The position numbers were made by a program, and so were the translations under genes. The notes under the pieces were generated by a model. The model worked only from the letters and a program-made list of their open reading frames with translations, was not told the origin of the DNA and did not search any database. Of a stretch of 64,000 bases of DNA, positions 3,354-54,726 are shown piece by piece. The stretch is from Bacillota bacterium (GTDB taxonomy: Bacteria; Bacillota; Sulfobacillia; JABLXB01): the NCBI GenBank assembly GCA_013178305.1, contig JABLXB010000001.1, positions 328,203 to 392,202 of the forward strand, read 5' to 3'. Numbering within the stretch: position 1 is the stretch's first letter; every line of letters begins with the position of its first letter.

Positions 3354-3403
3354 GAGTCTGAATGCCCCCTTCGAACACACGACCGAACTATTGAACCGAC
3401 GCT

Positions 3404-29069: not shown

Positions 29070-29100
29070 TCTCAATCCCTCCCTGGAGTGGTTTATTCAA

Positions 29101-29214: not shown

Positions 29215-29931
29215 TCAGGCTGACGAGGCGGCTCCCAGGTATGCCTTTTGAATCTCGGGGTCCGTGGAAAGCGCCCGCGCGGGCCCCTCCCTGACTATGC
29301 ACCCCGTTTCCATCACGTAGGCGCGGCTCGAGAGCGCCAGCGCGCCCCGCGCATTCTGCTCCACCAGCAGGACAGTAGTGCCCAGCCTGTTGATGTCCCG
29401 TATCGCCCCAAAGATGGCCTTGACGAGTATCGGGGCGAGGCCCAGGGACGGTTCGTCCATCAGCAGGAGCCGCGGGTTGGACATGAGCGCCCTGCCGATG
29501 GCGAGCATCTGCTGCTCGCCGCCTGACAGCGTGCCGGCCCGCTGTTTCGACCTCTCCTGGAGCCTGGGGAACAACTGGAATACCTTCTCCAGGGTCTGCT
29601 TGGTGCCGGCAGCGTCCCTCCGCAAGAACGCCCCCATCTCCAGGTTATCCAGGACGGACAGGTTGGCGAAGATACGCCTTCCCTCGGGGACCTGGCAGAT
29701 CCCCAGCCCCACGATATCGTACGGTCGCTTCGCGAGGAGGTCAACGTCGCGAAACTTGATGGACCCGCTGCGCGCGCGAATGAGGCCGGAGACGGCCCTC
29801 ATCAGAGTGGATTTCCCTGCGCCGTTTGCCCCGATGATGGCGACGATCTCCCCCTCCTCCACGTTCAAGGAGACGCCCCTCAGCGCGTGGATACCACCGT
29901 AGAATACGTTGAGATCCTGCACCCTGAGCAT
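29215..29931 (-). CDS. livF: Branched-chain-amino-acid-type ABC transporter ATPase (238 aa)
   Basis: The LivF-type ATPase with Walker A (GANGAGKST), signature (LSGGEQQMLAIGRALM), Walker B (LLLMDEPSLGLAP) and H-loop VEQNARGAL. The start ATG shares its A with the stop of livG (TGATG), so the pair is coupled. It powers import with LivG through the LivH-LivM channel. In this cluster the ligand may be histidine, urocanate or a related acid rather than leucine. Confidence 0.93.
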   Translation of the reverse strand: MLRVQDLNVFYGGIHALRGVSLNVEEGEIVAIIGANGAGKSTLMRAVSGLIRARSGSIKFRDVDLLAKRPYDIVGLGICQVPEGRRIFANLSVLDNLEMGAFLRRDAAGTKQTLEKVFQLFPRLQERSKQRAGTLSGGEQQMLAIGRALMSNPRLLLMDEPSLGLAPILVKAIFGAIRDINRLGTTVLLVEQNARGALALSSRAYVMETGCIVREGPARALSTDPEIQKAYLGAASSA

Positions 29932-30707
29932 CAGGCGATCTCCTCCCCTTCACCCAGGTAGGCGGTGATTACCTCGGGATTCGCCTGAATCTCCCCGGGG
30001 CTCCCCTGGGCGATCGTCTTCCCGAAGTTGAGCACGATCACCCGCTCGCAGATCCGCATGACGATGTCCATGTGGTGCTCGATCAGCAGGATGGTCAAAT
30101 CGAGCTCCCGCCTGATCCGGAGGATGAACTCCACGAGATCGGCCGACTCCTTCGGGTTCATGCCCGCGGCGGGCTCGTCCAGAAGCAGCAGCGCCGGGCC
30201 GAGGGCGAGTGCCCGGGCGATTTCGAGACGCCGCTGGTGGCCGTAAGGAAGGTTCCTCGCGATCTCGTCCTTGCGCGTGTCGAGGCGCACCCACTCGAGG
30301 AGCGTGTCGGCCCTCTTCGTGAGTTCTGCATGCTCGCGCCTGAACCTGGGGGTCCTGAACACGGCGTCCGCGATCGAGTAGCCTGCCTGGCCGTGGCAGG
30401 CGGTAAGCACGTTATCGAAAACCGTGAGGTTTGAGAACAACCTTATGTTCTGGAACGTACGGGCCATGCCGAGTTCGGCGAGGCGGAACGGGGGAAAACC
30501 GGTCACGTCCTTTCCGTCGAACGCTATGGTTCCTGTCGTCGGCTTGTAGAGCCCGGTCAACAGGTTGAACACAGTGGTCTTGCCGGCGCCGTTAGGGCCT
30601 ATCAGCCCGATGAGCTCGCCCTTCTCGACTGCCAGGTTGAAGTCATCCACGGCGACCAGCCCGCCGAACGACCTGCTCAAATTCCTGGTGACCAGGATAT
30701 CCGGCAT
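29931..30707 (-). CDS. livG: Branched-chain-amino-acid-type ABC transporter ATPase (258 aa)
   Basis: The LivG-type ATPase has Walker A (GPNGAGKTT), the long LivG insertion GMARTFQNIRLFSNLTVFDNVL, signature region NLPYGHQRRLEIARAL, Walker B (LLLLDEPAAGMNPKE) and H-loop EHHMDIV. The frame is open to 30884, but similarity starts at the ATG at 30707, which overlaps the livM stop (TGATG). It functions as a heterodimer with LivF. Confidence 0.93.
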   Translation of the reverse strand: MPDILVTRNLSRSFGGLVAVDDFNLAVEKGELIGLIGPNGAGKTTVFNLLTGLYKPTTGTIAFDGKDVTGFPPFRLAELGMARTFQNIRLFSNLTVFDNVLTACHGQAGYSIADAVFRTPRFRREHAELTKRADTLLEWVRLDTRKDEIARNLPYGHQRRLEIARALALGPALLLLDEPAAGMNPKESADLVEFILRIRRELDLTILLIEHHMDIVMRICERVIVLNFGKTIAQGSPGEIQANPEVITAYLGEGEEIA

Positions 30708-31612
30708 CACGACCGCCCCCCTTCGCCGGCCCCGGCGCCTGGAGCGGCCGATTCGCCGGGCACGCTCCTCGGCCGGCCGAAACCGCAGAGTGACTGGGGG
30801 CTTATCTCGCGATACCCGAGGAGTCCCTTGGGTTTCGCGATGATTATGAATATGACCGTCGCCCCGTACAGGACGAGTCGCCATTCGGCCACCGCCCTGA
30901 GCACCTCGGGGAGGAGCGTGACCAGGAACGCGGCGAGTATCGAGCCGGTGAGGCTCTTAACCCCTCCCAGTATCACGCCGATTATGAGCTCGGTCGACTT
31001 CTGGAAACCGAACATCGACGGGTGAAGCACCGTCGTATACGACCCGATGAGTCCACCGGCCAGTCCTGCCAGTCCGGCGCTGATCGCGAACACGATCATC
31101 TTGTACTTGAAGACGTTTATGCCCAGCGTCTGCGCGGCCATCTCGTTCTCGAGGATGGCGACGAAGCTGAATCCGTGACGCGACCACAGCAGGTTGCGCA
31201 CGGCGACGATGCACAGCACCGCGATGATCCCCACCAGCAGCAACGTGCTCCTGAATGGGATGCCGGGGAGGCCGCGGGAGCCTCCGGTCAGCCCGTCCCA
31301 CGCCTCGATGAGTCGCGCTACTATCTCCCCCACACCCATCGAGCCGACCACGAAGTAGTCGCCCTTCAGCCTCAGCGTCGGGTAGCCGATAACCAGGCTG
31401 CACATCACGGCTGCTACGACGCCGCCGGCGAGCGCCAGGTAATACGGGACATTGCCGCGCAGTATGAGGAGGGCGCACGTGTACCCGCCGATTCCCATGA
31501 ACGCCGCGTGCCCGAAAGTGAAAAGCCCCGTGAACCCGAACATGAGGGCGACGCCCAGCATGGCGATTATGTTGATTCCTGTTAGCACGAAGACGGATTC
31601 AAAGTAACCCAC
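30707..31612 (-). CDS. livM: Branched-chain-amino-acid-type ABC transporter permease LivM (301 aa)
   Basis: A hydrophobic permease with LivM features: MFGFTGLFTFGHAAFMGIGGYT near the N-terminus, NEMAAQTLGINVFKYKMIVFAISAGLAGLAGG in the middle, and GGVKSLTGSILAAFLVTLLPEVLR towards the C-terminus. The last 30 residues are Gly/Ala/Pro-rich and may be a nonconserved tail. GTG start at 31612 with a GGGGGTG ribosome site. It forms the channel with LivH. Confidence 0.92.
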   Translation of the reverse strand: MGYFESVFVLTGINIIAMLGVALMFGFTGLFTFGHAAFMGIGGYTCALLILRGNVPYYLALAGGVVAAVMCSLVIGYPTLRLKGDYFVVGSMGVGEIVARLIEAWDGLTGGSRGLPGIPFRSTLLLVGIIAVLCIVAVRNLLWSRHGFSFVAILENEMAAQTLGINVFKYKMIVFAISAGLAGLAGGLIGSYTTVLHPSMFGFQKSTELIIGVILGGVKSLTGSILAAFLVTLLPEVLRAVAEWRLVLYGATVIFIIIAKPKGLLGYREISPQSLCGFGRPRSVPGESAAPGAGAGEGGRS

Positions 31613-31625
31613 CGGGCTTCACCCC

Positions 31626-32501
31626 CTACGCCTTCTCGTCAACCGGCTTCCCCATCAGCCCCGTGGGACGGACGAGGAGCACCGCAATGAGCAGCAGGAA
31701 TGAGAAAACGTCGCGGTACGTGGTCGAGACGTACCCCGCGACGAAGGTTTCCGTAATGCCGAGAAGCATCGCCCCCAGGAAGGCGCCGGGGACGCTGCCG
31801 AGTCCGCCGAAAATGGCGGTTATGAATGCCTTGAGAATGATGAGCCCCATGTTGGCGTGAACCGTGTACTTGACGCCACGGAATATCCCGGAGAAACCGG
31901 CCAGGATCCCCGCAAGGAGGAAGGTGTAAGAACAGATCTTGTCGACGTTCACTCCCATCAGGAAAGCGGCGTCGGAGTCGTACGCGGTCGCGCGAATGGC
32001 CTTGCCCAGCCTGGTATAGTTCAGGAACAACTCGAGAGCGACGACCCCGGCAAGTGCGGTCACCAGGGTCAGCAGGTCGATCGAGCTTATCACAATCTCA
32101 CCCAGCTCGAGGCTGGTCTCCACCACGGCTTCCTCGGGGAAAGACCTGAACTTGGCACCGATAGTGACGATGGTCAGGTTCACGAGGAGGGTCGAGACAC
32201 CGCACGCGCTGATGAAGTAGTAGAACTTGGGCGCGTTCCGGAGCCTCAGCGGCCTGTAGGCGACCTTTTCGACGAGCATCGCGAGGCAGCCGGCTACGAG
32301 GACGCCACCGGCGACCGAACCGAAGAATGGGAGATTCACCAGGCTTACTCCGAAGAACGCAGCAAAAGCAGCGATCATAGTGAGCTCGCCGTGAGCGAAG
32401 TTGCTGAAACCCAGTACGCCGTATATCATCGAATACCCGACGGCAGCCAGAGCGTAAACAGAGCCCACAACAAGTCCGTTAACCAGCTGTTGAAGAAACA
32501 T
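31626..32501 (-). CDS. livH: Branched-chain-amino-acid-type ABC transporter permease LivH (291 aa)
   Basis: The LivH-type permease has the N-terminus MFLQQLVNGLVVGSVYALAAVGYSMIYG, the loop LGFSNFAHGELTMIAAF, and the conserved GKAIRATAYDSDAAFLMGVNV cytoplasmic loop followed by FGGLGSVPGAFLGAMLLGITE. ATG at 32501 preceded by GGGGGAACG. It follows the binding-protein gene after a 103-nt gap that holds a hairpin. Confidence 0.93.
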   Translation of the reverse strand: MFLQQLVNGLVVGSVYALAAVGYSMIYGVLGFSNFAHGELTMIAAFAAFFGVSLVNLPFFGSVAGGVLVAGCLAMLVEKVAYRPLRLRNAPKFYYFISACGVSTLLVNLTIVTIGAKFRSFPEEAVVETSLELGEIVISSIDLLTLVTALAGVVALELFLNYTRLGKAIRATAYDSDAAFLMGVNVDKICSYTFLLAGILAGFSGIFRGVKYTVHANMGLIILKAFITAIFGGLGSVPGAFLGAMLLGITETFVAGYVSTTYRDVFSFLLLIAVLLVRPTGLMGKPVDEKA

Positions 32502-32536
32502 GTCGTTCCCCCAATCCGCGCCTGCCCTGCTCCGAG

Positions 32537-32572
32537 GGGACAGGGGGCGGCGGCCATGCCGCTCCCTGTCCC
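32537..32572 (-). terminator. Hairpin between livK and livH
   Basis: Outer arms GGGACAGGG and CCCTGTCCC and inner arms GCGGC and GCCGC pair in the spacer between binding-protein and permease genes. No T-run follows, so it probably stabilises livK mRNA or attenuates read-through. NAG triplets nearby are spaced by three or five nt, not four. Confidence 0.5.
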
Positions 32573-32604
32573 TGTCCCTGTAATACTACGCTATCGTACC
32601 TGCG

Positions 32605-33819
32605 TTACTCCTTCGTCGCCTCGATGAAGGCGAACTTGCCGTCCTTGACCTGGAGGAGCACTGGATGGAGCTTCGGGTTATGCGTCTTGGGATCGAACGT
32701 GATGGCGCCGGTCACCGCCGGGAAGTCCCTGGTGGCCTCGATCTGGTCCCTGACAGCCTCCCTGTCGGCCTTGCCAGCCCTCTTGATGGAGTCCACGATG
32801 ATGTAGAGGGCGTCGTACGCAGCCGCCGCGTTGCAGTCCGGCTCCACGTTCCACTTCGCCTTGAACGCCTTGCGGAACTCCTGGTTCTTGGGCGAGGGAT
32901 CCTCGGGCGACCAGTGGGTCACGATGTAGGTGCCCTCGGTGGCCTTGCCGCCTATCTTGACGAAGTCGTCGGAGTCAAGCCCGCCACCGCCGACGAAGGG
33001 CGCCTTGATACCGAGGTCGCGCGCCTGCTTGATGATGAGCGCGGCTTCCTTATAGTAGATGGTGAGAGCGATCAGGTCGGGGTTCTTGGCCTTTACCCTG
33101 GTAAGGATGGCCTTGAAGTCCTCTTCGCCGCCCTTGATGGTCTCCTCAGCAACGATCTGGCCGCCCCACTTCGGGAACTTCTCTTTGAATACTCCGAGGA
33201 GCGTCTTGGAGTAGTCCTGGCTGACGTCGTAGATCACGGCGACCTTCTTGGCCTTAAGCTTCTCGCCGGCCGCCCACGCCACGCCGCCGCCCTCAACGGG
33301 CGAGGTGAACGAAACCCTGAAGAAGTACTTCCGTACCTGGTCCGGAGCAGGCTGCGTCACCGACGGGTGGATGGCCATGGTGCTGATTGCCGCTACCTTG
33401 GCCTCCTCGACTACCGGGGCCATGGCGAGGCTCATGGAGCTCATGTTCTCGCCCACGATCGCGACCACGTTGTCCTGGTTGATCAGCCTGCGGACGACGT
33501 TCACTACTTCGACCTTGTCGCCCCTGTCGTCGTACTGGACGACCTGGATCTTCTTGCCGAGGACGCCACCCTTCGCGTTGATCTCCTCTTCAGCGAGGGT
33601 GATACCCATCTTCTCCTGCTGTCCCCAGGCAGCTGCATCACCGGAAAGCGGGCCGGTGTACCCGATCTTGATTACGTCGTCCTTCGGCTGGGCAGGCTGC
33701 GGCGCCGGCGCCGGTGCGGGTTTCGCCGGCTCGGCCGGTTTCTGGGCCGGCTGGCCACCGCAACCCGCCAGCGACACGATGATTACCAGCGTCGCTATGA
33801 GCGCTATAACCTTCTTCAC
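32605..33819 (-). CDS. livK: Branched-chain-amino-acid-type ABC transporter substrate-binding lipoprotein (404 aa)
   Basis: A periplasmic-binding-protein type I lipoprotein: signal peptide VKKVIALIATLVIIVSLAGC with lipobox Cys, a Pro/Ala/Lys linker, then IKIGYTGPLSGDAAAWGQQEKMGITLAEEEINAKGG. The frame is open to 33852, but the GTG at 33819 has an AGGGGGTG ribosome site and gives a standard signal peptide. It would capture the transported amino acid or acid outside the membrane. The position between larA and the permeases in a histidine-type cluster makes an imidazole compound a plausible ligand. Confidence 0.93.
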   Translation of the reverse strand: MKKVIALIATLVIIVSLAGCGGQPAQKPAEPAKPAPAPAPQPAQPKDDVIKIGYTGPLSGDAAAWGQQEKMGITLAEEEINAKGGVLGKKIQVVQYDDRGDKVEVVNVVRRLINQDNVVAIVGENMSSMSLAMAPVVEEAKVAAISTMAIHPSVTQPAPDQVRKYFFRVSFTSPVEGGGVAWAAGEKLKAKKVAVIYDVSQDYSKTLLGVFKEKFPKWGGQIVAEETIKGGEEDFKAILTRVKAKNPDLIALTIYYKEAALIIKQARDLGIKAPFVGGGGLDSDDFVKIGGKATEGTYIVTHWSPEDPSPKNQEFRKAFKAKWNVEPDCNAAAAYDALYIIVDSIKRAGKADREAVRDQIEATRDFPAVTGAITFDPKTHNPKLHPVLLQVKDGKFAFIEATKE

Positions 33820-33950
33820 TCGATTACACCCCCTGCGTGTTTTCGTTTCCATTCGCTACCGTCCTGTTGGTACTTCGTTCTGACTCCCTGCCAGATGTGG
33901 TTTCCGCCCACCACTCCCTTCGGCTGCACCGAACCGCCTTTTCTGCACAG

Positions 33951-33993
33951 GTAAACAAAAAGAGAGTAAACCCGTGAATCAGGAACTCTCTTT
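33951..33993 (-). terminator. Rho-independent terminator at the 3' end of larA
   Basis: On the minus strand AAAGAGAGT pairs with ACTCTCTTT and is followed by TTTGTTTAC, a T-rich tail. The stem overlaps the larA stop codon and lies about 130 nt upstream of livK. HutP-type triplets run directly into its 5' arm. Confidence 0.75.
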
Positions 33994-35337
33994 ACTGATA
34001 GCTGCTGACTTGATTCGGTTGTCCCGATTGTCTTTCGACGTCCGCGACCCGACTCCTTCAAGTACCGGCAGGCAAACACCGCCCATCGGCAAGACGCCTA
34101 TCGTCCCGCCGGGGACCCGTCGCAGAGCGGTGTCCACCGCTTCCTGCAGGTCTTCGACCTTCGTGTAACCAAGGACTGCGCTGTCCTCACCGGTGAGCCC
34201 GTCCGAAACGAGTAGTACGCTGGCTTTCTCCCGAATCCTCGAGTTGCAGATACCGAGGTCGGCGGCCACAAGATCGTTAGTCTCGTCACCGGGCGAGGTG
34301 CTCCTCGCGAGGCAACACGCCTCGCGGTAACCCAGTTTCAGCCAGTCCCTCAACCGCGGGTGGTTGTGCTCGAGGCCCTCCGGGCAGGGGGTCACAAAAA
34401 TGATGCAGCCGCCCTTCTTCACCGCGAAGTACGCTGAAATGAGGCCCTTCTCGGCCTGCCAGTAGTCGATGTCGCACGGGAAGGAACTCACGATCACGAT
34501 GTCGGCCGGCTCCGGCACGTCAACCCCATAGGCCTCGGTGGCGATAGCGGCGCCCTCACGCTGCGCCTTCACGAAGTCGCCGGCGACGACGCCGACTATT
34601 TCGCCGCGGTGATTCAGCACGGTGTTGACGATGAACGCGAGCCCAACCCTCCGCGCCACTTCTTCCATGCCGGCCCTGCACGGGTTGTCCATGACCCCGA
34701 GCGGGATCTCGTCCAGCAGCGCCGCGGCGACGTGGGTCGCGGCGGTCGTCGCGAACCCGCATATCCCGGGCTGCACGATCTTCGCCCCGCCCGAGAATCC
34801 AGCGTCGGAGTGCGGGACGATGTTACCCGTGCCGATGACGAAGTCGGCCTCGAGCGCTTTCCTGTTCACGTGGACGGGTATCTTGCTCGGCCCGACCTCG
34901 ACGACGCCAAGGTCGACCATCTGGGTTTTGTCCCTGAAGTCGTGCTGGGATATCTTCACCCTGTCCACGACCACTTGTCCGACCTTGTCCACGATCTCCT
35001 GGCTGGTCATCACCCTGTGAGTGCCCGGGGCGGTCAGGAGCTCTATGTGCTTCGACGCAACGCCGCAGCCCTCGAGGTAATCGAGCAGCACCGGCAGCAT
35101 CATCTTGAGAGGGGTGTTGCGCGTATTGTCCTCGATGAGGATGAGCACCTTGTCCCCGGCCGAAACAAGGTCCCTCAGAGCCGCGCAACCGGTGGGGTTG
35201 TCCAGCTTCCGCCTGATGGCTTCCCTGGGATTACCTACCGGGGCCAGGTCCTTCATCTTGCCGTCGAAAAGAAGCCGGCCCGCCGGGATCCGGGCCTTCA
35301 CGGAACCCGATCCGTAAGGTAGCGTTATCGTTGTCAG
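33979..35337 (-). CDS. larA: LarA-type nickel-pincer racemase/epimerase family protein, probable CTG start (452 aa)
   Basis: The LarA superfamily (DUF2088) uses the nickel-pincer nucleotide to racemise or epimerise 2-hydroxy acids. Visible are the His in APGTHRVMT and the cofactor-lysine motif HSDAGFSGGAKIVQPGICG. The first ATG/GTG/TTG is the GTG at 35301, but translation upstream of it gives ITLPYGSGSVKARIP, which is the conserved LarA N-terminal strand. The only start-like codon there with a ribosome site (GGAGGGAGG, 8 nt) is CTG at 35337. LarB, LarC and LarE for cofactor synthesis are not in the window. Neighbours suggest a hydroxylated imidazole acid as substrate. Confidence 0.85.
   Translation of the reverse strand: MTTITLPYGSGSVKARIPAGRLLFDGKMKDLAPVGNPREAIRRKLDNPTGCAALRDLVSAGDKVLILIEDNTRNTPLKMMLPVLLDYLEGCGVASKHIELLTAPGTHRVMTSQEIVDKVGQVVVDRVKISQHDFRDKTQMVDLGVVEVGPSKIPVHVNRKALEADFVIGTGNIVPHSDAGFSGGAKIVQPGICGFATTAATHVAAALLDEIPLGVMDNPCRAGMEEVARRVGLAFIVNTVLNHRGEIVGVVAGDFVKAQREGAAIATEAYGVDVPEPADIVIVSSFPCDIDYWQAEKGLISAYFAVKKGGCIIFVTPCPEGLEHNHPRLRDWLKLGYREACCLARSTSPGDETNDLVAADLGICNSRIREKASVLLVSDGLTGEDSAVLGYTKVEDLQEAVDTALRRVPGGTIGVLPMGGVCLPVLEGVGSRTSKDNRDNRIKSAAISKESS
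33988..34011 (-). promoter_or_regulatory. Candidate HutP binding site 2 (AAG-N4-CAG-N4-CAG-N4-GAG)
   Basis: The transcript carries four NAG triplets in a row, each separated by exactly four nucleotides (spacers TCAG, CTAT, TAAA). The last GAG lies within the 5' arm of the terminator. This repeats the arrangement seen before hutU at 29.1 kb. Confidence 0.65.
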
Positions 35338-35368: not shown

Positions 35369-35776
35369 CTACTCGAGCGTCACAATCTCGTTGTCTGCGT
35401 CCACGGTCACCTTCTGCCCGTCTTTCAGGTTTTCGTAGAACCCGCGGTCCACCCTGTACACGGCCGGTATCTCCATGACGATGGCGCTCGACACGAGCAC
35501 GGTATCGGGGTGCTCGATGACCATCGCCTTCGGGGCCTTGTCGTGCTTCATGAGCTTGTACAACCCGTCAGCCTGCACGACCGAGCTACCCTTGCCCGAC
35601 GGCATGACAAGGATTTTCCCCGCGACGCTGCTGCCTTCCAGTGAATGATTCTTTTCTTTGACGATGCCTGTCTCAGGTGCTACGAGGTAGAAGCAGACAG
35701 CGTCGCGGGAAATCATGACCTCGCCTTCGGCCTTGCCTGCCGATATGCGACGGCACATGAACTGCTTACCGGGCAT
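35369..35776 (-). CDS. Aconitase X small (swivel) subunit, module 2 (135 aa)
   Basis: A DUF126 swivel subunit with NHSLEGSSVAGKILVMPSGKGSS, VVQADGLYKLMKHDKAP and VKDGQ-type C-terminus (LKDGQKVTVDADNEIV). It is a paralogue of the 25.7 kb copy but shorter at the N-terminus and clearly diverged. The ATG at 35776 overlaps the large-subunit stop (TAATG). With that subunit it forms a complete hydro-lyase. Confidence 0.9.
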   Translation of the reverse strand: MPGKQFMCRRISAGKAEGEVMISRDAVCFYLVAPETGIVKEKNHSLEGSSVAGKILVMPSGKGSSVVQADGLYKLMKHDKAPKAMVIEHPDTVLVSSAIVMEIPAVYRVDRGFYENLKDGQKVTVDADNEIVTLE

Positions 35777-36993
35777 TATCGCGACACCTCCCCTTTGATA
35801 GCGGCCTCAACGGCCTCCTTAAGGGGCCTGATGATGAACTTGATGTCCCTGATCTCGTTGTAATAGGCGCACTTCGGCGAGTCGGTCACGCCGGTCTTAC
35901 CGTAATATGGCTGCCAGCACGGCGGGACATCGATGCAGGTGTCCGACACGATGTGGCCCCCGGCTCGCTGGATCGTGCTGAGGTATCCCATCCGCCGCGC
36001 GAGCTCTTTTGTGGTCGAGCTGGTCAGCGCCCAGAAGTCGACCGCGAGCCGCTTTCCTTCGAGGGTCCGCGCTATTTCGGCGACCTGGTTGAGCGTGAGG
36101 TGCGGGCACCCGAACATCGCGAAGTCGATCTTGCCTGGTTCGCCCATTATCAGGTGGCGGACGTGGTCAAGATCCTCATCCGTGATCACTATCCGCTCCT
36201 TCGGCTTCCTCCCGCCGAAGGCGGCCTCCAGAGTGGGTGCTTCCGGGGTTATGCCTGCGATGTGGTACATTGGGACGGCGCCCGACGTGTTGAGCTGGGC
36301 GCCGAAGTTCATGAATCCCTCGGGGGTTGGTCTCTCCTTGATTCCGGTGAACACGGGGATCTCGAGGCCCTTGTACTTGAGGGGGTAGCTCCACCCCAGC
36401 AGCTGGTAGTCGAAGTCGTCCTTCACGCGGGCCTCGACCTCGACGAGTATCTCGCCCTTGCGGTTTTCGTCGAGAAGCAACCCGTATTCGGGCACGAGTC
36501 CGGTTATCGCCGCGCACAGCGCGCTCTGGGACGATTCCCTGTTGGACCTCGCCCCTATAACTGAATTGACGTATGGCGTTGCGCTCGATTCCGAGAACGC
36601 TACCACTTCGCCATACGCCGGCACGTTCTGGCCGAGGTATGGGGTACAGTCGAAAGTGAGGGTCGCGCCGATCTTCCTGTAGGCCTCGTCAGTGGCCGTG
36701 ACGATGTCCCAGCCCTCTTTGGGGATTTCGAACAGGTGCTCGCTGAGGTACGCGCAGTCGATGCTCGGGTTGACAGTCGGGGATACCTTGCACCGCGCGC
36801 CCTTGTTCAGGAGTTTCTCGACGAACCAGAGGTCGGCGTCCTGCGCGCTCAGCGCCACGTGCGCCCTGGTTATCGGCACCATCCGCCGCGCCTCGAACAC
36901 ATTCCCCACGGCTACCTGGATCTTCATGGCCAGGGCCGTGCCCTCGCCGTACTTGCCGTCCAGCATGTCTTTCTCGTAGGCGGAAAGATTCAC
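35776..36993 (-). CDS. Aconitase X catalytic subunit, module 2 (405 aa)
   Basis: A second full-length AcnX large subunit: MLDGKYGEGTALAMKIQVAVG, TRAHVALSAQDADLWFVE, TFDCTPYLGQNVP, SESSATPYVNSVIGARSNRE, and candidate Fe-S cysteines in FGCPHLT, DTCIDVPPC and SPKCAYY. The frame is open to 37032, but similarity begins at the GTG at 36993 with GGGGGTG upstream. It is about as long as the first copy and shares its key residues, so both are probably active on related but different substrates. It lies between ftcD and larA. Confidence 0.9.
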   Translation of the reverse strand: MNLSAYEKDMLDGKYGEGTALAMKIQVAVGNVFEARRMVPITRAHVALSAQDADLWFVEKLLNKGARCKVSPTVNPSIDCAYLSEHLFEIPKEGWDIVTATDEAYRKIGATLTFDCTPYLGQNVPAYGEVVAFSESSATPYVNSVIGARSNRESSQSALCAAITGLVPEYGLLLDENRKGEILVEVEARVKDDFDYQLLGWSYPLKYKGLEIPVFTGIKERPTPEGFMNFGAQLNTSGAVPMYHIAGITPEAPTLEAAFGGRKPKERIVITDEDLDHVRHLIMGEPGKIDFAMFGCPHLTLNQVAEIARTLEGKRLAVDFWALTSSTTKELARRMGYLSTIQRAGGHIVSDTCIDVPPCWQPYYGKTGVTDSPKCAYYNEIRDIKFIIRPLKEAVEAAIKGEVSR

Positions 36994-37079
36994 GATTTCA
37001 CCCCCGCGAACCCGCGAATGGTTGGAGGTCATCCGGTCGCCAACCGTTGCACTGGTCGGCCGGTCTGTTAGCCGCTCTA

Positions 37080-37970
37080 TCAGTCGATCAACGTGTTCTC
37101 TATGATCTGGCCCATGTTGAAATCGTGTACCTGCAGGTAGTGCTTGACGACCTCGTCAAGCGCCATGAGCGGGACCGGGCCGACGAGCTCCGCGCCCGCT
37201 ACCAGCACCCCGTAGCGCGCGGCCTCCGACCTGATGGTCTCCATGACCCGGGGAATGGGGGTCTTGCGGTAGTCGATGAGGTTCATCGACACCTGGACCA
37301 TCCCCTTATCCTCGAGGGAGAGCCCCATCGCCCGGACGTACCGGTACCCGCCGTTTATGTGCCTGACTGCCCTGGCGATCCTCTCCGCGATGGAAAGGTC
37401 GTCCGTCCTGAGGTTGACGTTGAAGGCCACGAGCGGGAATCTAGCGCCCGTGATCACCGCGCCCGTCCTGGCGTTGAACTCAGCGGGGCCCTCGTCGGGC
37501 TTCCAGTTCGGGTCGCAGAGCTTGTCGCGGAGACCCTCGTACTGGCCCTTGCGCACGTTGACAAGGCTCTGGCGCTCGGGTCGCGTCGCCGCGTCCTCGT
37601 AGTAGTAGACAGGGATACCCTTCGCGCCCACGAACTTGCCGAACACCCGCGAGATCTCGACCGCTTCCGCGGTCTCGACATCGCGGATGGGTATGAAAGG
37701 AACGACGTCGAGCGCCCCCATCCTGGGGTGGGCGCCGCTGTGCTTCGTCATGTCGATGATCTCGAACGTCTTGTCTGCGAGCTTCTTTGTGGCCTCGAGC
37801 ACCGCTTCCGGAGCCCCAAGGTACGTGATGACCGAGCGGTTGTGGTCCTCGTCCGACGAGTAGTCGAGCAGCTTGGCGCCGGCGGTCGTCCGCACCTGGT
37901 CCACCACGGCCTCGACCATTTCGCGGTTCCTGCCCTCACTGATGTTTGGAACGCACATCAGGACTCTCAT
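37080..37970 (-). CDS. ftcD: Glutamate (or glycine) formimidoyltransferase (296 aa)
   Basis: The protein matches the stand-alone formiminotransferase domain: VPNISEGRNREMVEAVVDQV, DYSSDEDHNRSVITYLG, MTKHSGAHPRMGALDVVPFIPI with the catalytic-site His, and GFNVNLRTDD-like AFNVNLRTDDLSIAERIA. It transfers the formimino group from formiminoglutamate (or formiminoglycine) to tetrahydrofolate. The start overlaps the cyclodeaminase stop (ATGA), so the two partners are coupled. Their presence shows that the pathway ends in a formimino-amino acid. Confidence 0.93.
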   Translation of the reverse strand: MRVLMCVPNISEGRNREMVEAVVDQVRTTAGAKLLDYSSDEDHNRSVITYLGAPEAVLEATKKLADKTFEIIDMTKHSGAHPRMGALDVVPFIPIRDVETAEAVEISRVFGKFVGAKGIPVYYYEDAATRPERQSLVNVRKGQYEGLRDKLCDPNWKPDEGPAEFNARTGAVITGARFPLVAFNVNLRTDDLSIAERIARAVRHINGGYRYVRAMGLSLEDKGMVQVSMNLIDYRKTPIPRVMETIRSEAARYGVLVAGAELVGPVPLMALDEVVKHYLQVHDFNMGQIIENTLID

Positions 37971-38572
37971 ACGCCACCTCCGACTTCCAGGCCGGCAAAG
38001 CCGGCAGCCGTTTTCAGAAACGAATCAGCCTCGGCCTCAAACCGGGCCTTTGCTGCGGGGTCCTTCAGTGAATCGAGGTTAATCCTTACGTTAAACACAC
38101 AGCCTGTTACACCCGTCGTTGCCAGAAGCCGCGCGACCTCGAGGTCGGATGCGGCATTCGGGTTGGACTTCCCCTTCAACCGCCTGTACAGGTCCAGCAC
38201 CTTCAAGCAGGAGACCGCGTTGTCGCGCGGGACCTCCGTGGCGTTGACCAGGGCGGCCTGGATCGCCCTGCTCCTGGCCTGTTTCTCCTCATCGGTGGAC
38301 TTCGGGAGCTTGTAGGCGTCGGCCACCCTGCTGAATGCCTCGGCATCCTTCACCGCGCCCGTCAACAGGGCATCCCGTAGCTCGACCGCCGCGGAAACAA
38401 CGGCGTCATATTCCCCGTCGCTCAACGCGCTGTCAGGGCGTCCCCTGGACAGGCCGGCCACCATCCCCACCAGTCCGGCGGCCATACCGCCGGCGAATGC
38501 GGATGCCGAACCCCCTCCGATCGTCTTGTCCGACGGATCGAGGATTCTGTCCATTACGTCATACCTGGTCAA
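37967..38572 (-). CDS. fchA: Formiminotetrahydrofolate cyclodeaminase (201 aa)
   Basis: A small all-helical cyclodeaminase with the folate-site motif TIGGGSASAFAGGMAAGLVGMVAGL near the N-terminus and EVPRDNAVSCLKVLDL in the middle. It converts 5-formimino-THF to 5,10-methenyl-THF and ammonia. The TTG at 38572 overlaps the upstream stop (TTGA). It works with FtcD. Confidence 0.92.
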   Translation of the reverse strand: MTRYDVMDRILDPSDKTIGGGSASAFAGGMAAGLVGMVAGLSRGRPDSALSDGEYDAVVSAAVELRDALLTGAVKDAEAFSRVADAYKLPKSTDEEKQARSRAIQAALVNATEVPRDNAVSCLKVLDLYRRLKGKSNPNAASDLEVARLLATTGVTGCVFNVRINLDSLKDPAAKARFEAEADSFLKTAAGFAGLEVGGGV

Positions 38573-39867
38573 TGCGTACCACCATCCCCATTAACAATAA
38601 CCCTGCCCCCTTCAACGACAACCTTCCCCCGCTTGATCACCTTGTCGACCACGTTTCCGCCGAGGCGGTATATCACGTGCTCGTACGAAGGGACGTCCCA
38701 AACCTGGATGTCCGCCAGCTTCCCGGGTTCGAGCGAACCGCGGTCGGACTCGAGGCCGAGCGCCTTAGCGCCACCGAGCGTAGCGGCCCGCAACGCTTCC
38801 GCCGGCGACAGGCGGTGATTCCTGCACGCCAGCGCCATCACGAGCTGCATGGACTCGGTCCACCCGCCCGGGCACAGGTTCGTGGCGAGGGCGACCGTCA
38901 CCCCCGCGTCAACGACCGCGCGCGCATTCACCGGTCGCGGATGACGTACCGCGAAGTCTATTCCGGGCAGCAGCACGCCCGGGACTCCCGATCCGGCCAG
39001 TTTCCCGAGGGCCTCGGGTGGCGTGTAGTTGAGGTGGTCCGCGGACGCCATTCGCATGTCCGCCGCGAGGTCAGAACCGCCGATGTACGAATAGGCGTCC
39101 GTGTGGATCTTGGGGCGCAGCCCGGCGCCGGCCGCCGCCTCGAGGATGCGCTCGGAGTCCGCGGTGGTGAAGTGGCCGTCGTCGCACCACACGTCACAGA
39201 AGGTGGCGACCCCGATGCCCGCCACCCAGGGGATCATCTCGCCTATCAGCATATCGATGTACATCTCGCGGGACACGTCCGGCGGCCACCCATGGGCCCC
39301 CAGGAACGTGCTGACGATGTCCACCGGGGTTTCCTTGCCAAGCCGCGCGTTGACGCGGAGCATCTTTATCTCATCTACGGTGGTGAGGCCGTAGCCGCTC
39401 TTACTTTCCAGCGTGGTGGTCCCAGCGGCGAGCATCCTGAGGAGCCGCGCCCTCGCGGAGGTGAAGAGTTCTTCCTCGCTCGCCTGCCTCGTCATCTTCA
39501 CGGAGACCATTATCCCTGTCTCGATCCCCATCCACTGGAGATCGGCAGGGTCGTCGGTCGTCATCCTCGCCGCGTACTCGCGGACCCGTGACCCACCGAA
39601 CACCAGGTGGGTGTGGCAATCCACGAAGCCCGGCGCCACGACCTTGCCCGTGGCGTCGATGACGGCGGCGCCACTCGTATCCACGGCGCGGTTTACTTCC
39701 TCTCGCGCGCCTGCTGCGACGATACGGTCACCCGCGATCGCCACGCAGCCGTTCTCTATCCTCCCGATCAGGTCGCGGGCATTCTCCGTGCAGGTGATTA
39801 TCTCGGATGCGCCGGTAATTACGACGCTTGCCTCCGGTTTCTGTCGCCTGTCCCCCATCCAGCTCAC
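38569..39867 (-). CDS. hutI: Imidazolonepropionase-like amidohydrolase, divergent (432 aa)
   Basis: An amidohydrolase with the HutI layout: metal ligands in VDCHTHLVFGGSRV, TTTLESKSGYGLTTVDEIKML, FLGAHGWPPD, KIHTDAY and SADHLNYTPPE. It departs from canonical HutI at two catalytic positions: the metal-binding Asp in the usual ATDFNPG is Asn (ATNLCPGG), and the acid after KIHAD is Ala. The first ATG is at 39858 within a GTG-initiated frame at 39867. It probably still hydrolyses an imidazolone-type ring to a formimino compound, since ftcD and fchA follow. The exact substrate may differ from imidazolonepropionate. Confidence 0.78.
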   Translation of the reverse strand: MSWMGDRRQKPEASVVITGASEIITCTENARDLIGRIENGCVAIAGDRIVAAGAREEVNRAVDTSGAAVIDATGKVVAPGFVDCHTHLVFGGSRVREYAARMTTDDPADLQWMGIETGIMVSVKMTRQASEEELFTSARARLLRMLAAGTTTLESKSGYGLTTVDEIKMLRVNARLGKETPVDIVSTFLGAHGWPPDVSREMYIDMLIGEMIPWVAGIGVATFCDVWCDDGHFTTADSERILEAAAGAGLRPKIHTDAYSYIGGSDLAADMRMASADHLNYTPPEALGKLAGSGVPGVLLPGIDFAVRHPRPVNARAVVDAGVTVALATNLCPGGWTESMQLVMALACRNHRLSPAEALRAATLGGAKALGLESDRGSLEPGKLADIQVWDVPSYEHVIYRLGGNVVDKVIKRGKVVVEGGRVIVNGDGGTH

Positions 39868-39953
39868 GCCTCACGTTTTCAGCCGTCTCGCCCTGCAACG
39901 TCGGCCGCGCAAAGAGCCTTTGCACCTTACACACATCTGCCTGCCTTCGCCCA

Positions 39954-39991
39954 CCCGGACGCCGGTCCGATAACCGGGCCGGCTGTCCGGG
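39954..39991 (-). other. Strong stem-loop between the urocanase paralogue and hutI
   Basis: Arms CCCGGAC-GCCGG and CCGGC-T-GTCCGGG form a 12-bp stem with one bulge and a 13-nt loop, in a 149-nt intergenic space. There is no T-run. A second small stem (GCAAAG/CTTTGC at 39909-39923) lies beside it. Likely an mRNA processing or stability element. Confidence 0.5.
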
Positions 39992-40016
39992 TTAGTTGTC
40001 GGGTCACCGGCTACAT

Positions 40017-41723
40017 CTACTTCTCCAGGTCCTTCGGCCCAAAGGTGGCCCTGGGGCTCCACCAGAGAGGTATCTTGATGCTCTCCTTCGTCAACTTACC
40101 TTTGCCCATCGCGACGTCGCGCGCGGTCTCGTACCCGGCCTGGGCGTGGCGGACCACACCGATGCCTGAGTCGGTGGTCATGCACACCGAGAGACGGAAT
40201 TTCGCTTCTTCCGTGCCGTCGGCGATCATGGTGACGCCGGTGTGCACTGCCTCGCCCATCGAGTAATTGGCCTGGATGGCGACCAGGTCGGCCATACCCA
40301 CCGCGTTGAGCAGGCCGTTCAGGTACGGCCAATCAGAGATCAGGTCGCTGCCGTCCTTCATGTTCTCCGATTCAAACGTCGGGTTCACTATCGAGCCGGA
40401 GTCGAGGTTATCGCGCGAGAACGCGACCGGGCCGGCGAGCTCGCCGCGACGGATCATCTCGTTGACCTCGAGCGCGAATTCCTTACGCTGGCCGAACCCC
40501 ATATAGCAGATGCGGGCGGGCAGGGCCTCGATCGGGATGTGCTTCTTCGCAAGGCTGATCCACCTGGTCACCAGGATGTCATCCTCGAACTTGTTGAGTA
40601 TCATCTCGTCGATCTTCGCCAGGTCGCTCGCCTCACCCGAGAGGCAGGTCCACCTGAAGGGCCCACGGCCTTCGCAGAACAGCGGCCTGATGTACGCCTG
40701 GACGAACCCGGGGATCTTCATGGCTTCTTTCTCGGCCATTCCGGCGTCGCGGGCCTCCTTGCGGATGCTGTTGCCGTATTCGAACGAATGCACGCCCTTA
40801 TCCAGGTATTTGTTGAGCATGGTGAGCTCGCGGATCATGGTCTCGCGGGCTTTCTTCAAGTACAGCAGGCGGTCTTTCGCCCTCAGCTCGGCAGCCTGAT
40901 CCGGGGTGTAGCCGGACGGAATGTAGGAAATTGGGTCGTGGGCCGGCGTCATGGATGACATGATGTCGGGCATGAAGCCCTTCGCGAATGCCTGCTCGAA
41001 TATGTCAGCCGAGTTGCCGACCACCGCGATGCCGAGTGGCTTCTTTTCGGCGGCGTACTTCTTCGCCATCGCTATGGCCTCGTCGAGCGACGGAGCGAGC
41101 ACATCTATGAACTTCTTCTCGATCCTGCGCTTGATTATCTTCTCATCCGCGTCGCACAAGAGGCAGACGCCACCGTGCATTGTCATGGCCCTGGTCTGGT
41201 TGCCGCCCATTCCACCGGCGCCGGCCGTCATGTAGATCTTGCCGACCAGCGAGTCGTTATAGTGCAGGCGAGCAATAGCCGAGAGGGTCTCGAACGTCCC
41301 CTGGATTACGCCCTGCGTCCCGATATACTCCCACGGGCCGGCGGTGTACTGCGCGAACATCGTGAGGTTCTTGTCCTGCAGGTCGTAGAATATCGGCCAA
41401 GTCGCCTTCATGATGTTGGTGTTGGCCATGACTACTTCGGGCGCGTACTTGTGGGTCTTGAAAATGGCGACCGGCATGCCGGACTGGACCACGAGTGTCT
41501 CATCGTCTTCGAGGTTCTTCAGGGCGTCGACGATCGCGTGATACGACTCCCAGTTCCGGGCGCACTTCCCGATGCCACCGTAGATTACCAGCTCTTCCGG
41601 CTTCTCCGCGTTCTCCATGTTGTTCTCGAGCATGCGGAGAATACTTTCCTGCCTCCAGCCCTTGCACCGGAGGGTCTTACCGCGTTGCGCCTTGACCGAA
41701 TACAGGATCTCGGGCTTCGCCAC
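40017..41723 (-). CDS. Divergent urocanate hydratase paralogue (568 aa)
   Basis: The protein is homologous to urocanase over its full length: CKGWRQESILRMLENN, NAEKPEELVIYGGIGKCARNW, NAD-binding TAGAGGMGGNQTRAMTM, AHDPISYIPSGY and LPARICYMG with the active-site Cys. It lacks features of true Hut[10 protein letters not shown] is SSMTPAHDP, the signature FQGLPxRICW is IEALPARICY, and the glycine-rich HHGGGVG loop is QANYSMGEAVHTG (about residues 482-495). Substrate specificity is probably altered. The GTG start at 41723 follows GGAGGAGG; it is the first gene after the sigma-54 promoter. Confidence 0.85.
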   Translation of the reverse strand: MAKPEILYSVKAQRGKTLRCKGWRQESILRMLENNMENAEKPEELVIYGGIGKCARNWESYHAIVDALKNLEDDETLVVQSGMPVAIFKTHKYAPEVVMANTNIMKATWPIFYDLQDKNLTMFAQYTAGPWEYIGTQGVIQGTFETLSAIARLHYNDSLVGKIYMTAGAGGMGGNQTRAMTMHGGVCLLCDADEKIIKRRIEKKFIDVLAPSLDEAIAMAKKYAAEKKPLGIAVVGNSADIFEQAFAKGFMPDIMSSMTPAHDPISYIPSGYTPDQAAELRAKDRLLYLKKARETMIRELTMLNKYLDKGVHSFEYGNSIRKEARDAGMAEKEAMKIPGFVQAYIRPLFCEGRGPFRWTCLSGEASDLAKIDEMILNKFEDDILVTRWISLAKKHIPIEALPARICYMGFGQRKEFALEVNEMIRRGELAGPVAFSRDNLDSGSIVNPTFESENMKDGSDLISDWPYLNGLLNAVGMADLVAIQANYSMGEAVHTGVTMIADGTEEAKFRLSVCMTTDSGIGVVRHAQAGYETARDVAMGKGKLTKESIKIPLWWSPRATFGPKDLEK

Positions 41724-41814: not shown

Positions 41815-41830
41815 TGCAATTCTCTTGCCA
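41815..41830 (-). promoter_or_regulatory. Sigma-54 (-24/-12) promoter of the imidazole cluster
   Basis: On the minus strand TGGCAAGAGAATTGCA matches TGGCACGNNNNTTGCA at 11 of 12 defined positions with correct spacing. It lies 92 nt upstream of the first gene. A divergent sigma-54 activator gene starts about 290 nt away. The 398-nt region 41724-42121 holds no gene. Confidence 0.85.
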
Positions 41831-42121: not shown

Positions 42122-43942
42122 GTGGAGTTCGAGGCTATCGGATCGCTGCTGAGCGACTTCGTCGAGGGCATCGTGATCGCCGGGGCGGACGGTGTCATAG
42201 CCTGGCACGGCGGCCGCATCGACGCCTCATACGAGGTCCAACGGGGGAAACGGTTCTCCGAGGTTTTCGGAGTAGACGCTCCCGGGACTGGCGAAAAGGG
42301 GACCGTACTCACTACCCCCCAGGGGCGCAAGATAGTACTCCGCGGCAAGCGGGTTGCGGTCGGCGGAGCCTCCTATCACGTCGTGTTCGTCGACGACATG
42401 ACCAACCTCAAGTCAAAGGAGAGCCGCCTCCACTGCCTGGAGACCATAATCGAGTCGATCAACGACGGGGTGCTCATGAGCGATTTCGAGGGGCGCATTG
42501 CGCTGTACAACCGCGCCCAGCAGAACCTCGAGGGTATACGCGGTGAGGAGGCCGTCGGGAAGTACCTGTGGGACACGTACCACTACAATCCGGAGCTGTC
42601 CGAGCACCGCAGGGTGTTCAAGACCGGCGTCCCCATCATCGAGAGGTACCGCGCGCACGCATACAAAGACGGAGTCCCGCAATACCTGACGTACAGCACC
42701 TACCCACTCGTCAAGGACGGCGAGACCATTGCCGTCTACTCCATCAGCAGGAACGAGACCAAGCTGCGTGCGCTGCTGTACGAGACCATCGAACTCAAGC
42801 GGAAGCTCCTGAACGGCCCCGATCAGCGGGAGGATCTACCCAACAACGGGACTGCCTACACTTTCGCCGACATCAAGGGCGAAAGCCAGGCAATCCGTGG
42901 GCTGGTCCAGGAAGCGCAGATGATGGCCCTCCTGGACACCAACGTTTTGATCGTCGGCGAGACGGGAACCGGTAAGGAGCTGTTCGCGCAGAGCATCCAC
43001 AACCACGGGATGAACTCGAAGAAGCCGTTCGTGGCGATCAACTGCGCGGCTATTCCGGAGGCCCTGCTCGAGAGCATCCTGTTCGGCACCGTCAAGGGAG
43101 CATACACCGGCGCCGTGGACCAGATCGGCCTGTTGGAGCACGCGCAGGATGGCACCCTGTTCCTCGACGAGATAAGCTCGATGCCGGTCCCGCTCCAATC
43201 CAAACTCACCCGCGTCCTCCAGGAAAGAGCCGTTCGAAGGGTTGGCGGGCTGTCCGTCGCGCCTGTCCGCTGCCGCATAATCAGCGCCGCCAACGAGGAC
43301 CCGCACAGGCTCATACAGGAGGAGAGGCTACGCCTTGACCTGTTCCACCGGATAGCCGGCACCTGCCTCATCATCCCGCCGCTCCGCGAGCGCAAGGATG
43401 ACATCCTGTACCTGTCCCAGCACCTGATAAACTACTACAACAGGGCCTTCAACAAGCGTATCGATGGGCTGGCGCCTGAACTCAAGGACCTGATGCTTTC
43501 ATATCCATGGCCCGGCAACGTGAGGGAACTCGAGCACTTCGTGGAGAACCTCATGGTCCGCGCTGGGGACGACCAGACCGTGCTGGACGTGCACAACATC
43601 CCGCTGTACCTGCGCCGCGATATCCTCGGGAAAGCGGCTTCTCTCGACCCTGCGCCCAGGCCGGCCACACCTGGCTGGGCGGTCGCACCTACCGCACCCG
43701 CGACTGTTGATGAACGCGCCAGGCAGGCCTCGCTGCCGGAGCACCTGCGCGACTACGAGGAACAGACATTGAGGAAGGCACTCGACGAGAACGGCTGGAA
43801 CATCAGCCGCGCGGCGAGGAGCCTCGGCATCCTGCGCCAGAGCCTGCAATACCGGATGAAGAAGATGGGCATCATCAAGCCCTCACCCGTGTTGTTGGGG
43901 CCGTCTGGAGCTTCGGGCTCTTCAAGCCCTTCAGCCGGGTAG
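42122..43942 (+). CDS. Sigma-54-dependent activator with PAS domain, RocR-like (606 aa)
   Basis: Domains in order: N-terminal sensory region with a first PAS-like repeat (about 1-95), a PAS domain (about 100-220; GVLMSDFEGRIALYNRAQQNLEG), an AAA+ domain with Walker A (GETGTGKE), sigma-54 contact loop GAYTGA and Walker B (GTLFLDEISSM), and a Fis-type helix-turn-helix (NGWNISRAARSLGILRQSLQYR). A GTG at 42122 has a GGAGG site. It is divergent from the imidazole operon with its sigma-54 promoter between them, and is the obvious activator. The usual inducers of the group are arginine, ornithine or related amino acids. Confidence 0.92.
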   Translation: MEFEAIGSLLSDFVEGIVIAGADGVIAWHGGRIDASYEVQRGKRFSEVFGVDAPGTGEKGTVLTTPQGRKIVLRGKRVAVGGASYHVVFVDDMTNLKSKESRLHCLETIIESINDGVLMSDFEGRIALYNRAQQNLEGIRGEEAVGKYLWDTYHYNPELSEHRRVFKTGVPIIERYRAHAYKDGVPQYLTYSTYPLVKDGETIAVYSISRNETKLRALLYETIELKRKLLNGPDQREDLPNNGTAYTFADIKGESQAIRGLVQEAQMMALLDTNVLIVGETGTGKELFAQSIHNHGMNSKKPFVAINCAAIPEALLESILFGTVKGAYTGAVDQIGLLEHAQDGTLFLDEISSMPVPLQSKLTRVLQERAVRRVGGLSVAPVRCRIISAANEDPHRLIQEERLRLDLFHRIAGTCLIIPPLRERKDDILYLSQHLINYYNRAFNKRIDGLAPELKDLMLSYPWPGNVRELEHFVENLMVRAGDDQTVLDVHNIPLYLRRDILGKAASLDPAPRPATPGWAVAPTAPATVDERARQASLPEHLRDYEEQTLRKALDENGWNISRAARSLGILRQSLQYRMKKMGIIKPSPVLLGPSGASGSSSPSAG

Positions 43943-44033: not shown

Positions 44034-44519
44034 CTAGACGTGGTTCAGCCCCAGGCCGAACGCCTCGTGTTCCCAGCCTTTCACGGGCGCCCCGATGGTC
44101 CCGTACAGCGCCACCGCGAGCCATTCACCTTCCTGCGGGTCCACCTCGCTCTTCGATCCCCGCAGCACCACGAAACTCAGGCCCACCGTGCGCAGCACGC
44201 TGCCGAACTCGATCTGCCCGCGCGAGACCCCCTGAAGGGCTTCTATGATCGCGTGGTAGAGCGCGTGCTCTTCGCGGAAGCTGGTCTCGTCGACGAGACC
44301 GCTCCTGCGGGCGGCCGTCTCGACTGCGGCCACGACCTTCGCCGGCTCCATCGTCCCCACGCGGCCCCTGACCATCCTGAAGCCTCGAGCCCTGATGACG
44401 TCGTCGACCGCACCGGCGGCGGCCTGGGGGTCGTCGAGCATGACCGCCAGTACCGCTGACTTCCCTATCCGGTTACCCCGCAGAAGCGTCTCGAGTATCT
44501 GCAAGACGTTAACCTCCAT
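44034..44519 (-). CDS. hutP: HutP-type histidine-dependent RNA-binding antiterminator (161 aa)
   Basis: The protein matches B. subtilis HutP along its core: IGKSAVLAVMLDDP, VRGRVGTMEPAKVVAAVETAARRSG, FREEHALYHAIIEALQGVSRGQIEFGSVLRTVGL and GTIGAPVKGWEHEAFGLGLNHV. The histidine/Mg-binding His residues (His85, His89, His151) are kept. HutP binds NAG triplets in hut mRNA when histidine is present and prevents formation of a terminator. It is cotranscribed with a phosphoribosyltransferase-like gene and lies 2.3 kb beyond the operon it may control. Two fitting RNA sites are found at 29.1 and 34.0 kb. Confidence 0.95.
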   Translation of the reverse strand: MEVNVLQILETLLRGNRIGKSAVLAVMLDDPQAAAGAVDDVIRARGFRMVRGRVGTMEPAKVVAAVETAARRSGLVDETSFREEHALYHAIIEALQGVSRGQIEFGSVLRTVGLSFVVLRGSKSEVDPQEGEWLAVALYGTIGAPVKGWEHEAFGLGLNHV

Positions 44520-54701: not shown

Positions 54702-54726
54702 GCGTCCTCGTGCGGAGGTGTTGGGT

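Follow-up and report, generated by a model that had tools for sequence, protein, structure and literature searches.

Why would a bacterium encode a second urocanase and an imidazolonepropionase that both depart from the signatures of their families, in addition to a canonical urocanase? The question is raised by a 64,000-nucleotide stretch of a Bacillota genome (JABLXB010000001.1, positions 328,203 to 392,202 of the forward strand), hereafter the window; the source genome, 97.7% complete, is G000 (G- and L-numbers designate the genomes and loci of this analysis). An earlier note, made from the sequence, had pointed out a 568-amino acid urocanase paralogue, here HutU_par (40017-41723, minus strand), a HutI-like protein, here HutI_par (38569-39867, minus strand; 432 amino acids), and a separate canonical urocanase, and all three open reading frames were recovered, the canonical HutU at 27408-29075 (minus strand) scoring 1001 bits with TIGR01228. 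We propose, with a probability of roughly 0.7, that a second pathway of the histidine type runs in parallel to the ordinary one, with HutU_par and HutI_par at its core, and acts on a ring-modified urocanate, most likely N-tau-methylurocanate.

HutU_par defines a divergent urocanase clade

HutU_par begins with a GTG codon preceded by an AGGAGG-type ribosome site, passes the cut-off of TIGR01228 (654.7 versus 375 bits) and matches all three Pfam urocanase domains. It was said to have lost the FQGLPxRICW signature; in its signature region, IEALPARICYMG, changes do affect the initial residues and the Trp, but the core LPARIC, with its Cys, is retained, so that the claim of lost hallmarks was overstated. 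Replacement of the HHGGGVG loop was borne out, VAIQANYSMGEAVHTG standing at this position with a two-residue deletion. The nicotinamide adenine dinucleotide (NAD) motif, GAGGMGG, and the Cys are kept as described, but this Cys is not universal in urocanases: in the long urocanases (about 670-690 amino acids; L132 7539-9557, L131 18027-19901, L145, L148 and others), the residue usually called catalytic is replaced by Leu.

Scanning 84,980 species genomes yielded 171 relatives, the best 74 loci of which encode HutU_par orthologues sharing 72-83% identity. These loci come from Bacilli, Syntrophomonadaceae, Clostridium, Synergistota, Desulfobacterota, Chloroflexota, Actinomycetota, Spirochaetota, Calditrichota and Burkholderiales. 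In a tree including canonical, long anaerobe-type and other urocanases, HutU_par forms a single clade with a support of 100 and a long stem. Residues were compared in a table of 91 HutU_par rows, some loci being sampled twice, numbered after the Pseudomonas putida chain. The QANYSM-type loop and the substitutions Q264M, M132Y, S136P, A365C, W412Y and H444N are common to all 91 rows, and S266P is found in 90 of them, while Arg362, Asp443 and the Cys are unchanged. QANYSM, Met-x-Pro and Asn occur in 91/91 rows where histidine-type urocanases have the HHGGGVG loop, the QTS motif and the His following Asp443, respectively. As the long urocanases, which belong to ordinary histidine operons of anaerobes, retain the QTS motif, this His and the GGG loop like the canonical enzymes, the residues altered in HutU_par are those that all histidine-type urocanases retain.

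A further divergent group of urocanases (50-60% to canonical) was encountered in relatives of the window genome (L033, L035, L038, L039, L041, L155, L156), adjoining canonical urocanases and Liv-type transporters; some of its members are without the Cys. A record named as Bacteroidota (L111, Lutibacter sp. B2, JADPRS010000026.1) carries HutU_par, HutI, FtcD and FchA that cluster with those of Clostridia and other anaerobes, possibly reflecting contamination or a mislabel.

HutI_par is its constant partner

HutI_par likewise passes its family cut-off (TIGR01224, 388.5 versus 298.15 bits) and forms one clade with a support of 100. The co-occurrence of the two genes was confirmed across genomes: an automatic tally found HutI_par near HutU_par in 54 of the 55 loci with complete flanks, and the 55th (L067), where a second HutU_par copy misled the tally, also has HutI. 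In Bacillus subtilis numbering, the window protein has ATNLCPGG for ATDFNPGS (D324N) and KIHTDA for KIHADE (E252A). The absence of the acid after KIHxD, noticed earlier, is a family trait, Glu252 being replaced by Ala or Gly in 79/79 HutI_par sequences, whereas Glu or Gln occupies this position in canonical HutI, including the Agrobacterium tumefaciens enzyme. Ile253 to Tyr, Val274 to Asn and position 298 to Asp are other HutI_par changes, and the metal ligands His80, His82 and His249 are retained in 79/79. The Asn reported in place of the metal-binding Asp is present as well but not diagnostic: position 324 is Asp in 49 and Asn in 30 of the 79 sequences; the tree requires no fewer than three changes, and both states occur within the Bacilli and within the Pseudomonadota rows. 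For these reasons D324N was rejected as a loss of function; nor does the Asp/Asn state track the presence of an M20 hydrolase versus FtcD in the HutI_par loci. The full HutI metal-ligand set (three His, Asp324, Glu/Gln252) does not occur in the HutI_par family.

Decay of HutU_par and HutI_par into pseudogenes was considered and rejected in view of their conservation across orthologues and their fixed residues. Contrary to the idea that hallmarks had been lost in this organism, the changes are old and shared across the orthologous families and, D324N apart, fixed.

A parallel pathway with its own lyases, exit enzymes and promoter

An ordinary urocanase, of the canonical kind in Bacilli and of the long type in anaerobes, is also present in 37 of 42 HutU_par genomes, most of which also encode at least two histidine ammonia-lyases (HALs). 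His83 of HAL contacts the imidazole. All 57 HALs of par operons have Asp or Cys at this position, versus His in the 22/22 other HALs, and they retain the 4-methylideneimidazole-5-one (MIO) group and the other catalytic residues checked. Mutation of the same His (H82L) in the Geobacillus kaustophilus HAL abolishes activity on histidine (PMC11432326). Since the His83-less operon lyases need at least three separate origins on the HAL tree, unrelated HALs recruited beside HutU_par and HutI_par converged on the loss of His83.

The enzymes of the last steps are also set apart. FtcD proteins adjoining HutU_par form one clade (support 99) and the 21 FchA proteins adjoining it another (support 100), both distinct from those of ordinary hut loci; one FtcD of each kind was read in G135. 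Based on these separate clades, the ring modification is probably still present at the FtcD/FchA step, with C2 carrying a hydrogen. Positions 4, 160 and 262 are the only ones that distinguish the par from the ordinary FtcD clade, and a structural explanation of the difference was consequently dropped. In the window, the par-clade FchA/FTCD_C-type cyclodeaminase (37967-38572, minus strand; PF04961, 1e-49) and FtcD-type formiminotransferase (37080-37970, minus strand; TIGR02024, 422 bits) directly follow HutI_par.

A sigma-54 activator homologue (43-57%) is divergently encoded beside HutU_par in most loci; that of the window (42122-43942, plus strand) contains PF00158 (1.5e-58), PAS and HTH_8 domains. 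Orthologous upstream regions hold a -24/-12 site with zero or one mismatch in 48 of 73 cases, about 0.2 being expected from shuffles. The predicted window promoter, TGGCAAGAGAATTGCA (41815-41830, minus strand), is located 107 bases before HutU_par and is the sole match in the window with at most one mismatch.

The substrate is probably an N-methylated urocanate

The His83-less HALs of par operons, together with the separate FtcD and FchA clades, point to a ring-modified urocanate with a free C2 as the substrate. FtcD/FchA, or the HutF/HutG-like genes found beside HutU_par in a Burkholderiales locus (product names from sequence reading), need an unsubstituted C2 leaving as a one-carbon unit, which argues against thio- and S-methylthio-urocanate. 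A bacterial pathway for N-tau-methylhistidine degradation was described by Beliaeva, Atac and Seebeck in ACS Chem Biol in 2022. Homologues of the lyase, urocanase and imidazolonepropionase from Bacillus terra are reported to be involved, a last enzyme releasing glutamate and N-methylformamide. Likewise, HutU_par, HutI_par, an M20 hydrolase and a His83-less lyase share one operon in Siminovitchia (Bacillus) terrae (L056), a soil Bacilli member, in which the homologues are clustered. We consider it likely that the HutU_par family belongs to this pathway. The window differs from it in having AcnX_A and LarA in place of a His83-less lyase, FtcD/FchA in place of the M20 hydrolase, and a Liv-type ATP-binding cassette (ABC) transporter. 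Some points weigh against the assignment to N-tau-methylurocanate: that the L056 operon is the published cluster is presumed from the species name; the sequence does not tell the tau from the pi form; and the product given to HutI_par is deduced from chemistry.

The par system uses the same families and gene logic as the canonical hut pathway (HutH, HutU, HutI, FtcD/FchA or HutG), and an ordinary urocanase and imidazolonepropionase of separate lineage, kept on the same substrate for other regulation or conditions, would account for the retention of Arg362, Asp443 and the Cys in HutU_par and of the His ligands in HutI_par; the long anaerobe urocanases further illustrate that ordinary function survives large divergence. 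Yet the par system differs in the separate clades of four proteins and in fixed active-site changes, at residues that even the long histidine-type urocanases retain, most of the same genomes already carry the ordinary set, and the lyases lost His83 convergently at least three times, which makes this explanation unlikely. These observations, with the complete-flank co-occurrence, agree with the earlier proposal that the pair co-diverged for a modified substrate. Among such substrates, N-pi-methylurocanate, which derives from anserine, or a form bearing some other ring substituent and a free C2 would suit FtcD/FchA or the M20 hydrolase equally, as would any product keeping the formimino carbon. 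The pi form would however leave N-methylglutamate, no enzymes for which were seen beside HutU_par, and the published pathway is that of the tau form; we regard this alternative as improbable.

Methylurocanate and thiourocanate had both been named as candidates, and the former fits best. Ergothioneine and S-methyl-ergothioneine degradation (thiourocanate hydratases; NF058530, NF058531; PDB 7ned and probably 8q9u) does employ a urocanase-family hydratase on a modified urocanate. In addition, 7ned, in which several active-site positions are altered, is placed near HutU_par in the tree, albeit on long branches, and the window encodes an S-methyl-thiohydantoin desulfurase-like protein (2217-3515). 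However, HutU_par falls below both models (NF058530, 611.6 versus 930 bits; NF058531, 642.1 versus 880 bits), its altered residues are others than those of 7ned, which is without the Cys and keeps QTS/GGG, and its downstream enzymes differ, FtcD/FchA requiring a hydrogen at C2. Thiourocanate and S-methyl-thiourocanate were therefore rejected as very improbable substrates.

Aconitase X and a LarA-like racemase at the proposed entry

Family searches of G000 revealed just one HAL, which is of the ordinary SH type and lies on another contig together with HutI and a formate-tetrahydrofolate ligase-like gene, and no dedicated His83-less lyase. What looks new in the window is that a distinct aconitase X (AcnX) subfamily and a LarA-like racemase stand in the place of the lyase. 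In the minus-strand operon, HutU_par, HutI_par, FchA and FtcD are followed by the large (35776-37032; PF04412, 4.9e-125) and small, swivel (35369-35776; PF01989, 3.4e-27; GKGSS motif with the catalytic Ser, as read from the sequence) subunits of AcnX_A, a LarA-like nickel-pincer 2-hydroxyacid racemase (33979-35301; PF09861, 1.9e-50), a LivKHMGF-type ABC transporter (29215-33852), the canonical HutU, the large (26174-27382; NF051439 match below cut-off) and small (25705-26190; PF01989, 2.9e-25) subunits of AcnX_B, a flavin mononucleotide (FMN)-dependent 2-hydroxyacid dehydrogenase family protein (24538-25560; PF01070, 1.4e-60) and a class I/II aminotransferase (23332-24459; PF00155, 1.8e-43). 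The transporter ORFs comprise a substrate-binding protein matching PRK15404, two permeases and two ATPases; such a transporter also adjoins HutU_par/AcnX_A at L102/L195.

AcnX_A and AcnX_B match PF04412/PF01989, have the catalytic core, and are groups inside one clade (support 100), here called RAH type. They share with characterised AcnX the fold family, the cluster Cys, Glu292, Ser293, Lys530, Tyr534 and the catalytic Ser, but differ in the loss of the amine-binding Asp203, a four-residue deletion with the motif RAHVA----LSxQ, an Asp at position 510 and a distinct clade. Subclasses IIc-IIf are listed as uncharacterised in the AcnX paper. A role as hydroxyproline dehydratase was rejected, Asp203 being absent and the model scores being 225.8 and 244.2 versus 700 bits. 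The LarA-like protein matches Pfam Lar_N and LarA_C and is below every NCBIfam LarA cut-off (257 versus 460 bits for LarA, NF033504; 296.9 versus 500 for LarAH6; the malate racemase cut-offs likewise).

In AcnX-seeded searches, 6 of 7 RAH-type loci had a urocanase no more than 10 kb away, versus none of 19 other AcnX loci (p = 3e-5); the exception, G246, is at a contig edge. AcnX_A homologues of at least 71% were found in five genomes (G000, G126, G132, G140, G141), all with HutU_par, and none of the HALs of G126 is of the His83-less type. HutU and AcnX_B are also adjacent in G044 and G053; in G044 a LarA homologue precedes AcnX_B, which is followed by HutU and a 2-hydroxyacid dehydrogenase-like protein, with HAL-HutU-HutI elsewhere. 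In the complete genome G310, HutU, HutI and AcnX_B are clustered, and HAL is absent from the genome. LarA-like homologues (56-67%) adjoin AcnX in G125, G126, G140 and G141.

Read most simply, these data mean that RAH-type AcnX would form the urocanate from an imidazolylpropanoate carrying a hydroxyl group, and the LarA partner points to a 2-hydroxy acid. We tentatively suggest that AcnX with the RAHVA----LSxQ motif may provide a lyase-free entry to urocanate metabolism, AcnX_B forming urocanate and AcnX_A N-methylurocanate from imidazolyl-2-hydroxy acids, with the LarA-like racemase giving access to both stereoisomers, and that the par FtcD/FchA may convert the methylated formimino group to methenyl-tetrahydrofolate, with methylamine as the other product. 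Alternatively, AcnX and LarA might serve a separate neighbouring route (e.g., from beta-hydroxy imidazole acids to imidazolepyruvate, or from glutamate-derived hydroxy acids) that does not feed HutU_par, a possibility we also regard as open to doubt. It accords with the chemistry of characterised AcnX, the loss of a beta-hydroxyl after removal of the alpha-proton (PMC8184944), and with the aminotransferase, 2-hydroxyacid dehydrogenase or HisD-like genes adjoining several RAH-type loci; yet AcnX_A tracks HutU_par and, in G310, which has no HAL, neither imidazolepyruvate nor histidine could feed into the urocanase of the same cluster. Several observations count against the lyase-free entry. Dehydration of a 2-hydroxy acid runs opposite to the characterised direction and would need the imidazole as activating group; G132 and G140 have AcnX_A plus a His83-less lyase, so that AcnX is not a simple substitute; RAH-type AcnX occurs with no nearby urocanase in G125, G129, G141 and G246 and with HisD-like genes in G070, G129 and G246; and LarA is not near AcnX in every case. 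Literature searches returned nothing on AcnX or imidazole-lactate dehydration to urocanate.

G000 encodes seven aconitase X large subunits, two of RAH type and five others. In G070 (L223, 4670-20000), HisD-like, AcnX_B, oxidase-like, HutI-like, HutF-like, ErtE-like and HutU genes (several named by sequence reading) are clustered in the absence of HAL, and this might be a route that starts from an imidazole alcohol. At L189 and L191, AcnX_B and a long urocanase adjoin an osmoprotectant-type ABC transporter and MttB-like methyltransferases, a neighbourhood that suggests histidine betaine use.

Proposed scheme

From the observed families, clades, fixed residues, co-occurrence and promoter, we infer the following substrates and products, and the AcnX reaction. 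HutU_par would add water to N-tau-methylurocanate, giving N-methyl imidazolonepropionate, the ring of which HutI_par would open at the bond to the methylated nitrogen, giving N-(N'-methylformimidoyl)glutamate. In Bacilli, the M20 hydrolase probably splits this product into glutamate and N-methylformamide, while in the window genome and other anaerobe-type genomes the dedicated FtcD/FchA probably passes the one-carbon unit to tetrahydrofolate, freeing methylamine. Elsewhere the unsaturated acid would be made by the His83-less ammonia-lyase; in the window, AcnX_A and the LarA-like racemase probably supply it by dehydrating a 2-hydroxy acid (methyl-imidazolyl-lactate). AcnX_B, beside the canonical urocanase, probably performs the same dehydration on imidazolyl-lactate.

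Other features of the window

HutP is the histidine-dependent antiterminator of Bacillus hut operons, and a HutP family protein (PF09021, 1.8e-25) is encoded at 44034-44519 (minus strand), close to the sigma-54 regulator gene. The desulfurase-like protein mentioned above (minus strand; PF06032/PF20906) adjoins a dipeptide-type ABC transporter and a PucR regulator, and this locus may be part of an S-methyl-ergothioneine-type catabolism. A 1220-amino acid protein combining a MutL domain with a B12-binding region is encoded at 60114-63776 (plus strand), and a D-glutamate cyclase-like protein at 54718-55770 (plus strand) adjoins tripartite ATP-independent periplasmic (TRAP) transporter genes. An Rfam search gave no match.

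Significance

The second pair of urocanase and imidazolonepropionase, which annotations everywhere assign to plain histidine breakdown, represents a pathway of ancient origin and wide distribution, present in many soil and sediment bacteria beside the ordinary one. Its substrate is very probably methylated histidine from the proteins of muscle and cytoskeleton. The pathway type is probably already published, reportedly from soil Bacilli; here it is followed into Desulfobacterota, Chloroflexi, Synergistota, Syntrophomonadaceae, Actinomycetota and Burkholderiales, where the last step differs, and the window presents a new variant in which both entry and exit differ. If the proposal made for AcnX is true, it would give a function to an uncharacterised aconitase X subclass, as an entry to urocanate without a MIO-dependent ammonia-lyase.

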